DNA from: a virus
Direction: 5' to 3' (one strand)
IMG/VR virus record: IMGVR_UViG_3300021373_001602
Location: 1-28,745 of that record
Length of the DNA: 28,745 nt
The notes under the pieces are model-generated. The model saw only the letters and a program-made list of their open reading frames with translations. It was not told where the DNA came from and made no database searches. Below are positions 646 through 28,745 of this stretch, piece after piece; within the stretch, counting starts at the first letter, position 1, and each line of letters opens with the position of its first letter. The position numbers were made by a program, and so were the translations under genes.

Positions 646-1284
646 CTAGAATAATTTAGTTTGCTTAGAGTGCTCGTTATACCTGGCCAGCGTTCTCTCG
701 AAGTACTCCGGATCTAGTTCCCATGCATCTAGATCGAATCCTAGATCATAACAAGCGCAAGCGATAGAACCGCTCCCCAGATGAGTATCTAGAATCTTAT
801 CTCCATCCTTAGCGAACTTCTCTAAGCAAAATTTATAGAGTTCGATAGGCTTCTGAGTAGGATGGATCTTAGGTACTTGATTACCAAGTATTAAAGCATG
901 CTTAAATATAGGAGCGGGCTTATTAAAAGAAGTCCATCCCATCTCCCACCCGGAGAAGTTCTCCCAAGGCTGGACCTTATCCCAAGCGATTACGCAGCGA
1001 GTAGGAGGGAGGTTAAAATAGTTCCCTCCCCATATGATCTGCTCTTTACTTACTCGGAAGAGTTCCTCGAAGTACTCCGGAGGAGGAGCCTTATCCCATC
1101 TCTCTATTTTATAATCTGTATTAAGACTTCCATTTTTTAATCTTCCTCCTCCTTTATATGGATTGGAGGTTTTAATCTCGTATGGAGGATCTACTATAGC
1201 GAGATCGTATTGGTTATCTTTCATCTCTCGCATAGCAGCTAGAGAGCATCCTAGATGGAGATTTATACTTGGATCGTTACGCAT
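646..1284 (-). CDS. DNA adenine-N6 methyltransferase (beta class)
   Basis: This 212-residue protein should methylate adenine in phage DNA using S-adenosylmethionine, most likely to protect it from host restriction. The catalytic DPPY motif is at residues 32-35, followed by WGGNYF (85-90), HPTQKP (141-146) and the cofactor-binding segment LDTHLGSGSIA (165-175) with ELDPEY after it. The catalytic motif preceding the cofactor motif is the beta-class order of the N6_N4_Mtase family. DPPY favours N6-adenine over N4-cytosine. The start overlaps the RusA stop by 8 bases, so the two are translationally coupled. No restriction endonuclease is adjacent, so it is an orphan methylase. The recognition sequence cannot be read from the protein. 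Confidence 0.92.
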   Translation of the reverse strand: MRNDPSINLHLGCSLAAMREMKDNQYDLAIVDPPYEIKTSNPYKGGGRLKNGSLNTDYKIERWDKAPPPEYFEELFRVSKEQIIWGGNYFNLPPTRCVIAWDKVQPWENFSGWEMGWTSFNKPAPIFKHALILGNQVPKIHPTQKPIELYKFCLEKFAKDGDKILDTHLGSGSIACACYDLGFDLDAWELDPEYFERTLARYNEHSKQTKLF

Positions 1285-24899: not shown

Positions 24900-25247
24900 A
24901 TGCCTACAATTAAAGTCCCACGAGAGATACAAGTAATAGCCCAGCGTGCAATAAACTATAACCTCGAGCAGCCCATTAGTAAACGTGCAGCGTATAAAGA
25001 TGAGGGAGGGAAGAGAGTTCCCGGTACTGGAATGAGAACCGCTAGAAGATTAGCACGAGGAGAAGTAGACTTAAAGCAGTTAGAGTTAATGGATGCTTGG
25101 TTCGCTAGACATGGAGAAGCGGAAGCAGAATCGAAAGCAAGGCAAGATAAAACGAGTAAGGCTGCTGTGGCCTGGGCTCTCTGGGGAGGTACTCCTGCTC
25201 GATCTTGGGTTAAGCGTGCAATCAGAAGCCTTCGATCTAATGAATAA
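24900..25247 (+). CDS. Plus-strand conserved phage protein (115 aa)
   Basis: ATG 24900 has TATAGGAGGCTTC before it. An upstream extension to 24762 would overlap the divergent gene and is rejected. The 115-residue product carries a pattern I recognise from a common phage family of unknown function: VPREIQVIAQRAINYNLEQP, then RTARRLARGEVDLKQLELMD, AWFARHGEAEAES, AAVAWALWGGTPARSW and a basic end. In related proteins the motifs FARH and AWxLWGG are conserved. It is one of only two plus-strand genes and borders the iteron array, whose first repeat begins at the last base of its stop codon. Confidence 0.75.
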   Translation: MPTIKVPREIQVIAQRAINYNLEQPISKRAAYKDEGGKRVPGTGMRTARRLARGEVDLKQLELMDAWFARHGEAEAESKARQDKTSKAAVAWALWGGTPARSWVKRAIRSLRSNE

Positions 25248-25287
25248 CACTAGATAACACTAGATATACACTAGATAACACTAGGTA
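25247..25287. repeat. Four-copy 10-bp iteron-like array
   Basis: ACACTAGATA occurs at 25247-25256, 25257-25266 and 25268-25277, and as ACACTAGGTA at 25278-25287. Spacing is 10, 11 and 10 bases, one helical turn each, so a protein could bind all copies on one face. The inverted form CCTAGTGTTA recurs at 25470-25480 and ACTAGATA at 25516-25523. Such arrays mark replication origins or operators. Confidence 0.85.
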
Positions 25288-25313
25288 AAATCTACGATAC
25301 TATCGCTGCTACG

Positions 25314-25473: not shown

Positions 25474-25515
25474 GTGTTATTTACTGTATTTTTTGTGTTA
25501 TTTACTGTATTTTTT
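25474..25515. repeat. Perfect tandem 21-bp repeat
   Basis: A 21-base unit starting GTGTTATTTACTG and ending in TATTTTTT occurs twice without a gap (25474-25494 and 25495-25515). The 21-base period is two helical turns. It is flanked by CCTAGTG on the left and ACTAGATA on the right, both variants of the iteron. A close match occurs in the early promoter region at 3056-3075. Confidence 0.85.
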
Positions 25516-25702: not shown

Positions 25703-26536
25703 CTATCCGTTATATTCTCCAGCCTGTAAGATTCCACTCTCCCAGAGTTGCTTCCCTATCCATTCTGAGCATTGAGGAACAATAGCATTCCCTAGGGCTG
25801 CAATTCTGTCCACCCTATTGGGAATCCCATCATCTCTTCTACAAATTGAGGACTCAATCGGAAATTCGTTCCAGTAATTTCTCTCTTCTTTATATACTCT
25901 CCCACTACTGTGTTTAAGCATCTCTGATACTTCCCTGTATGCCTGCTCGGTGTTAGTGGGTTCATCTTGTGATCGGTCTTGGTTGGAGTAGGAAGAGAGC
26001 CTCCGTTCATTGCTAATATAGTATCCAATCGTTCTCGGGTAAGCGATACAGAACCATCTCGCTCTTTTATGAGGGGCTCCGAAGTCACTCGCTCGTATAG
26101 TACACCATTCCGCATCGTACCCGATTTCGGATAGCGATCCAAGTACTGTTCCAAGCCCTCGAATAGTGATCGCTGCAACGTTCTCCATAATAACTGCTTT
26201 GGGCTGTAACTCATCGATAATACGATGCATCTCCCAGTAAAGACCAGATTTTTCTCCATGTAATCCATCTCCTTTTCCTGCGGTTGAAATATCTTGACAA
26301 GGGAATCCCCCGCATAGGATATCCACTTGCTCTACATTGTTCTTCGTTATGTTTCTTACATCTTCATAGATTCGAGCCTCGGGCCAGTGCTTAGCGAGTA
26401 CCTTCTGACAGAAGTTATTCTGCTCTACTTGCCATTGAGTAAATGCTCCGGGGATCGCTCTCTCCAATCCGAGTTCGAATCCTCCAATACCTGCGAATAG
26501 GCTTCCGATACTGTATCTTCTTACTTTCTCTTCCAT
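25703..26536 (-). CDS. dcm: C5-cytosine DNA methyltransferase
   Basis: The 277-residue product methylates carbon 5 of cytosine. Motif I FAGIGG (14-19), motif IV GGFPCQ with catalytic Cys80, motif VI ENV (118-120), motif VIII-like KRARWF (157-162), and motif IX/X RVDRIAALGNAIVPQ (241-255) are all present and in order, so it looks active. The target-recognition region (about 165-235) is short. The start overlaps the helicase gene by 16 bases. With the adenine methylase it probably protects phage DNA from restriction. The last third of the gene also encodes a conserved-looking protein in the +1 frame. Confidence 0.95.
   Translation of the reverse strand: MEEKVRRYSIGSLFAGIGGFELGLERAIPGAFTQWQVEQNNFCQKVLAKHWPEARIYEDVRNITKNNVEQVDILCGGFPCQDISTAGKGDGLHGEKSGLYWEMHRIIDELQPKAVIMENVAAITIRGLGTVLGSLSEIGYDAEWCTIRASDFGAPHKRARWFCIAYPRTIGYYISNERRLSSYSNQDRSQDEPTNTEQAYREVSEMLKHSSGRVYKEERNYWNEFPIESSICRRDDGIPNRVDRIAALGNAIVPQCSEWIGKQLWESGILQAGEYNG
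25792..26268 (-). CDS. Overlapping +1-frame ORF with methylase-associated motifs
   Basis: This frame, shifted +1 relative to dcm, is open for 158 codons, and its last 70 residues are not random-looking. LPTPTKTDHK (92-101) and LSPQFVEEMMGFPIGWTEL (138-156) closely follow the pattern TPTxxD ... LNPxFVExMMGFPxGWT. I know this pattern from the C-terminal parts of phage cytosine methylase proteins or separate proteins next to them. The same DNA encodes IESSICRRDDGIPNRVDRIA in the dcm frame, also standard. The start is unclear: ATG 26268 or ATG 26010, with no good ribosome site at either. It may be expressed by internal initiation or +1 frameshifting, or be a relic of overprinting. Confidence 0.45.
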   Translation of the reverse strand: MDYMEKNLVFTGRCIVLSMSYSPKQLLWRTLQRSLFEGLEQYLDRYPKSGTMRNGVLYERVTSEPLIKERDGSVSLTRERLDTILAMNGGSLPTPTKTDHKMNPLTPSRHTGKYQRCLNTVVGEYIKKREITGTNFRLSPQFVEEMMGFPIGWTELQP

Positions 26537-28406: not shown

Positions 28407-28745
28407 ACTAGATTCTCCAAGTATCCCCACCATCCGCATTTATTAGCCCGGTTACAGTGTGGATATCTCACTGCATGCAGAAGATCGGGATCGATTGAGA
28501 AGTAGACTTCTCTTTGGTTACAGGCTGGACAAAGTATATTCCGGGCTACGTTACCCTGGATAGATGCTCCGATCTGCTGAGCGAGTGCCATTCTATATTC
28601 TGGATTATGGAATAGAGCCTCTATTCCACTCTTCGAGCCTGCTCTCTTACTCTCCCATCTCTTATATCTTTTCTTCGGTTCCTCTTTCGGAATATGGGAA
28701 TAATCCAAGCGTAGCAGGCCCTCTCCTTTATTGGCTTTCGTTCTC
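28403..28745 (-). CDS. AEP-type primase, C-terminal zinc part (continues at 637)
   Basis: This is the rest of the primase gene that begins at 637. It overlaps the first part over the 136-base join and adds residues 213-280. Cysteines 239 and 242 (NILCPAC) and 264 and 270 (YPHCNRANKCGWWG) form a four-cysteine zinc ribbon of the kind primases use for template recognition. Here it is C-terminal to the catalytic domain, the reverse of DnaG. The gene ends at TGA 28403, overlapping the next HTH start. Confidence 0.8.
   Translation of the reverse strand, partial: RTKANKGEGLLRLDYSHIPKEEPKKRYKRWESKRAGSKSGIEALFHNPEYRMALAQQIGASIQGNVARNILCPACNQREVYFSIDPDLLHAVRYPHCNRANKCGWWGYLENLV
28610..28745. repeat. 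Terminal redundancy, right copy
   Basis: This is the second copy of the 136-base join, equal to bases 2-137 except T at 28736. Its immediate left flank (28609 G) continues the primase frame correctly (histidine 213), so this side is the reliable reading of the junction. Confidence 0.9.

Follow-up and report, generated by a model that had tools for sequence, protein, structure and literature searches.

The window analyzed here is a stretch of 28,745 nucleotides from an IMG/VR virus record, in which terminase and helicase genes are also found. On its minus strand lies a dcm gene, whose product we term alpha, and within that gene a second open reading frame, beta, in the +1 frame. The features of the locus are as follows.

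25703..26536, minus strand: alpha (dcm), cytosine-C5 methyltransferase large chain; 277 aa, frame 0, motifs I-VIII and X
25792..26259, minus strand: beta, +1-frame ORF inside alpha; 155 aa from the ATG at 26259, or 158 aa from the ATG at 26268
26285..26308, minus strand: alpha motif IV, GFPCQDIS, with the catalytic Cys, from alignment
26269..26274, minus strand: AAGGAG, Shine-Dalgarno-like, 9 nt 5' of the beta ATG; the purine-rich stretch and ATG recur in the clade
26057..26071, minus strand: alpha motif VIII, HKRAR, from alignment; the profile match to canonical enzymes stops just past it
25966..25995, minus strand: beta LPTPTKTDHK block, present in one to several copies among relatives
25795..25857, minus strand: beta motif IX-like segment, LSPQFVEEMMGFPIGWTELQP, from profile alignment to canonical motif IX and to fused and split relatives
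25772..25798, minus strand: alpha motif X, ALGNAIVPQ, from alignment; the AF2 model is confident here

Between its flanking stops the +1 ORF spans 179 codons, and it lies entirely within alpha. The ATG at 26259 is the best candidate for the start of beta and likely the true one, giving a protein of 155 aa that is offset from alpha by exactly +1 (26536-26259 = 277 = 92 x 3 + 1). A first-pass annotation had quoted two peptides encoded in overlapping frames at 25792-26010. Both are found there on the minus strand, yet this interval corresponds to just the last ~73 codons of beta, and the phenomenon is larger than was noted.

Alpha matches PF00145 (E=8.7e-47) and phrog_363 (E=2.7e-76). It contains the C5-methyltransferase motifs I-VIII and X, with motif IX absent from frame 0, and its profile match to canonical enzymes ends after motif VIII. 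The AF2 model (pLDDT 82.5, pTM 0.76), for which the best Foldseek matches are to M.HhaI, shows a C5 large domain, motif X included, with confidence, but is of low confidence for residues 180-240, where the small domain would be. Alpha is best read as the large catalytic domain, comprising the AdoMet site and PCQ catalytic loop, with motifs I-VIII and X.

Elsewhere in the window, an AT-rich stretch downstream of the methyltransferase contains tandem repeats (ATAACACTAG in 4.4 copies at 25244-25288, and a 21-bp unit in two copies at 25474-25515), and is possibly an origin or regulatory region. A 115-aa ORF at 24900-25247 on the plus strand, with no PHROG match, lies amid mostly minus-strand genes. 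A second DNA methyltransferase (646-1284, minus strand; phrog_67) has a DPPY motif, as is usual in enzymes acting on adenine or N4-cytosine. There seems to be redundancy between the two contig ends (1-137 and ~28609-28745); a run of 40 bases close to the right end is found again close to the left, and the ORFs at both ends share sequence, with a match that is not exact to the last base. This suggests a circular map or a terminal repeat.

Motif IX and the relatives of beta

The C-terminal end of beta is motif IX, LSPQFVEEMMGFPIGW, and beta contains no motif X. The canonical C5 motif IX, LTPREcxRLQGFPDxW, has a spacing equal to that in beta, and hhalign superposes the two, though the match is weak and covers a short stretch (E=0.0045, probability 7.8). 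When beta is aligned by profile with the C-terminal half of relatives that are fused or split, the probability is 99 and the E is 3.5e-18. The relatives provide the stronger argument for the identity of beta. Beta also matches phrog_1008 (E=5e-16).

The motifs of the relatives were typed by profile search and simple patterns (row L057 of alignment A2, set in the wrong frame, was left out), and motif IX in the +1 frame together with motif X in frame 0 was found at 215 of 269 loci. In unbiased sets of 89 viral and 80 GTDB genome (bacterial) loci, picked by frame 0 alone, the same arrangement occurs at 84 and 49 loci respectively. A search of E. coli gave four matching genomes. Other relatives are fused, with motifs I-VIII, LPTP blocks, IX and X in one chain (mycobacteriophage Shauna1 gp67, and the Actinobacteria loci L226 and L269); in Shauna1 gp67 and L269 the reading frame of the LPTP block is that of motifs IX and X. 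A split form occurs in phages Blue7, Andrew, KHumphrey, Camperdownii and Inventum, where alpha is truncated and is followed, in the +1 frame, by the same C-terminal half. It is through the split actinophage and fused Actinobacteria relatives that beta can be linked with the enzyme's C-terminal half.

Natural frame switches are seen at three loci. In L179 motif IX is now part of the alpha frame, and in L159 motif X has passed into beta, in the +1 frame. In L239 the first part of beta is kept in the +1 frame, with motifs IX and X in frame 0. A weakly supported tree of motifs I-VIII did not recover the order of the nested, split and fused forms. The first-pass annotation had raised the possibility that one protein arose by overprinting the other; two selected proteins do share the DNA, but the direction is left unsettled by the tree.

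Proteins related to the +1 peptide were found in 271 phage records (with a loose E limit of 10) and at 79 IMG/VR loci. The description of this peptide as a pattern known from methylase-associated proteins needs amending, as it is not an unrelated protein but one having the motif IX that is absent from the frame-0 protein. Could beta nevertheless be an overprinted protein whose function has nothing to do with the methyltransferase, for example that of a regulator or an anti-restriction factor? Taken alone it matches no Pfam or NCBIfam family above threshold, and its AF2 model (pLDDT 61, pTM 0.25) is of high confidence only at the motif IX end and has no Foldseek match. A weak fold in isolation might equally fit a part that needs its partner. 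A PDB profile search with beta returned one match, which we judged to be due to chance. We consider an unrelated function improbable, because motif IX of beta is in register with the fused and split methyltransferases, and because at each of the 80 loci retrieved by a search with the beta motif pattern the same DNA encodes alpha in its other frame, with no stand-alone beta gene among them.

The start of beta

In the clade to which the window belongs, an ATG is found at the same place, give or take a few codons, in all listed members. It is preceded by a purine-rich stretch, for example aaaggagagg, even where indels shift alpha by one codon. In several members (L009, L010, L012, L015, L093, L094 and L112) a +1-frame TAA or TAG lies immediately 5' of the ATG. 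Two loci listed alongside the clade, L029 and L030, lie outside it and are without the conserved start. A conserved ATG with a Shine-Dalgarno sequence and a stop directly before it favors internal initiation over frameshifting. In other clades beta starts elsewhere, often without a clear Shine-Dalgarno sequence, so that the argument for an internal start is firm for the clade of the window only.

The first-pass annotation had offered +1 slippage, making an alternative C-terminus, as one explanation. A programmed +1 frameshift would join the N-terminal domain of alpha to the C-terminus of beta, and the resulting chain could fold, since natural in-frame fusions of both halves exist (Shauna1, L105; L226 and L269). 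Such a frameshift is disfavored by the conserved start, with its Shine-Dalgarno sequence and, in many members of the clade, a +1 stop right before the ATG. Moreover, the depletion of stops described below begins near the beta ATG, upstream of motif VIII, and the fusion chain made in the window would be without motif X. We therefore regard frameshifting as quite unlikely, while the option of an embedded gene is strongly supported.

Constraint on the +1 frame

Since frame 0 is conserved, some +1 similarity must arise as its echo, and synonymous shuffles were used as the control. Codons were shuffled within each gene 200 times, keeping the frame-0 protein and the codon usage, and the +1 profile was trained on loci other than the one scored. 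The longest +1 ORF in the window is 179 codons, compared with a mean of 75 in the shuffles, and none of the 200 reached 179. Its +1 profile score is 165, against 18.8 +/- 8.7 (maximum 75.5) for the shuffles. This bears out the earlier contention that the ORF in the window is not due to chance, as both measures beat all the synonymous shuffles. The +2 frame of the window was unremarkable in the shuffle test.

The same holds among relatives. In the unbiased sets the +1 profile score exceeds all 200 shuffles at 86 of the 89 viral loci and 72 of the 80 genome loci. The +1 ORF is longer than at least 99.5% of shuffles at 69 viral and 38 genome loci; for the +2 frame these counts are 1 and 0. Of 36 loci tested from a strict non-redundant subset, 35 pass, and for the 17 genes there with less than 50% GC the median +1 ORF is 191 codons versus 79. 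The loci are related, and these counts are therefore not numbers of independent events.

Stops in the +1 frame were counted in 143 distinct (non-redundant) nested genes aligned to the window, with codons numbered by the alpha alignment.

Alpha codons 1-60: 376 observed, 328 expected
Alpha codons 61-90: 42 observed, 124 expected
Alpha codons 91-230: 5 observed, 432 expected
Alpha codons 231-240: 27 observed, 68 expected
Alpha codons past 240: 281 observed, 177 expected

Thus +1 stops, rather than being scattered through the homologous dcm genes, are essentially absent, and in the 143 genes there is no depletion outside the shared interval. The +1 constraint is limited to the region from about alpha motif IV through to the end of the motif IX-like segment, and conservation in this frame peaks at that segment with a mean z of -23.

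A reduction in synonymous change, for which the first-pass annotation had proposed a test, is also observed. Between the window and its near relatives the divergence at four-fold sites is 0.40 upstream and 0.18 in the overlap, and despite having fewer four-fold differences the alpha protein changes faster there. The usual pattern of divergence at the three codon positions (0.05/0.06/0.30) is flattened to 0.29/0.22/0.33 in the overlap. Four-fold divergence is also low 3' of the overlap (0.16, n=62); this downstream stretch is short as well, and the argument rests on the contrast with the upstream region. We conclude that beta is under protein-level selection, as alpha is. That the +1 similarity is a mere echo of the frame-0 protein or a constraint at the level of DNA is scarcely credible, for although parts of it must be echo and some +1 motifs do lie opposite conserved frame 0 (SGTMRNG opposite IGYDAEW, for example), the shuffles reproduce neither the openness nor the profile scores, there is no signal in the +2 frame, and the canonical methyltransferase L101 has no +1 signal.

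Known systems and a two-subunit reading

M.EcoHK31I is made of two polypeptides; motifs I-VIII, motif X and the predicted target-recognition domain (TRD) are in the larger, and motif IX is in the smaller (PMC3404938). In the account of Lee, Kam & Shaw 1995 given in PMC3404938 it is an alpha/beta C5 methyltransferase of YGGCCR. Compared with M.EcoHK31I as it is described, the window has the same division, with a large chain having motifs I-VIII and X without IX, and a small chain having IX without X. The small-chain ORF of the window overlaps the large one, and the beta ORF of M.EcoHK31I is also said to be nested in alpha in a different frame. M.EcoHK31I differs in belonging to a bacterial restriction-modification system, whereas the window is a viral contig, and in having its predicted TRD in alpha, whereas the fused relatives of the window suggest that beta holds part of the TRD.

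M.AquI is a split C5 methyltransferase with motifs IX and X in its small chain (PMC3404938). On a two-subunit reading the window shares with it a two-chain C5 enzyme split after motif VIII, but is not of this type because motif X sits in alpha and not in the small chain. It is the actinophage relatives Blue7 gp92/91 and Andrew gp43/44 that resemble M.AquI. Nor is the window a canonical single-chain C5 methyltransferase, as motif IX is not in the frame of motifs I-VIII and X.

In Streptococcus thermophilus 5093-group phages, pneumococcal phage MM1 and Tn5252, C5-methyltransferase ORFs overlap totally in different frames (PMC5601072). As in the window, dcm there contains a second ORF in the +1 frame; the difference is that their frame 0 has both IX and X, and that the nested ORF ends early without a motif IX-like segment. 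This different nested +1 ORF, in canonical streptococcal C5 methyltransferases, is found at 1637-2062 in MM1 (L098) and 1637-2056 in P0095 (L103). In MM1 it ends in SLSDILEEEVDERYFLS, opposite HLRGGSGRKVFPLS in frame 0, and a +1 segment resembling it, SLSDILETQDAPPKYFLS, is present at genome locus L206.

The kind of system is therefore known, M.EcoHK31I and the streptococcal overlaps having been described already. In PHROGs, where alpha falls in phrog_363 and beta in phrog_1008, both families are labeled "DNA methyltransferase", with no sign that they represent two frames of one locus. The literature searched gave no description of most relatives of this viral dcm type having a nested beta, and the near-universality of the nested beta in such viral genes appears to be under-recognized.

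Beta has motif IX, the sole motif missing from alpha, and the two ORFs thus look like subunits of one enzyme. Most probably the locus specifies an M.EcoHK31I-type cytosine-C5 DNA methyltransferase of two subunits, the beta ORF lying inside that of alpha. One mRNA would yield both proteins, beta being translated separately from the internal ATG with its own Shine-Dalgarno sequence. The contribution of beta would be motif IX, along with a segment that matches the region of target recognition in the fused relatives, and the small domain that contacts DNA would thereby be completed in trans. We infer that alpha and beta associate and that neither works alone, and the phage would use the enzyme to methylate its own DNA against host restriction.

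The LPTP blocks, one to several in number, lie between motifs VIII and IX, and their number lengthens alpha and beta together, in both frames. A speculative and rather unlikely reading is therefore that each block is a target-recognition module written twice, for one subunit and for the other. Specificity would then evolve by gain and loss of modules in both frames, and an occasional indel would turn a nested pair into a split or a fused enzyme.

It thus appears that a dcm type very common among viruses makes up only half of an enzyme, whose other half is hidden in the +1 frame and usually escapes annotation. If alpha is half an enzyme, expressing it or scoring it alone would yield false negatives. 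Two selected proteins here overlap over a long stretch, and the overlap is widespread, being present in 84 of the 89 viral relatives selected by frame 0; with nested, split and fused forms of one enzyme side by side it makes the evolution of overlapping genes testable.
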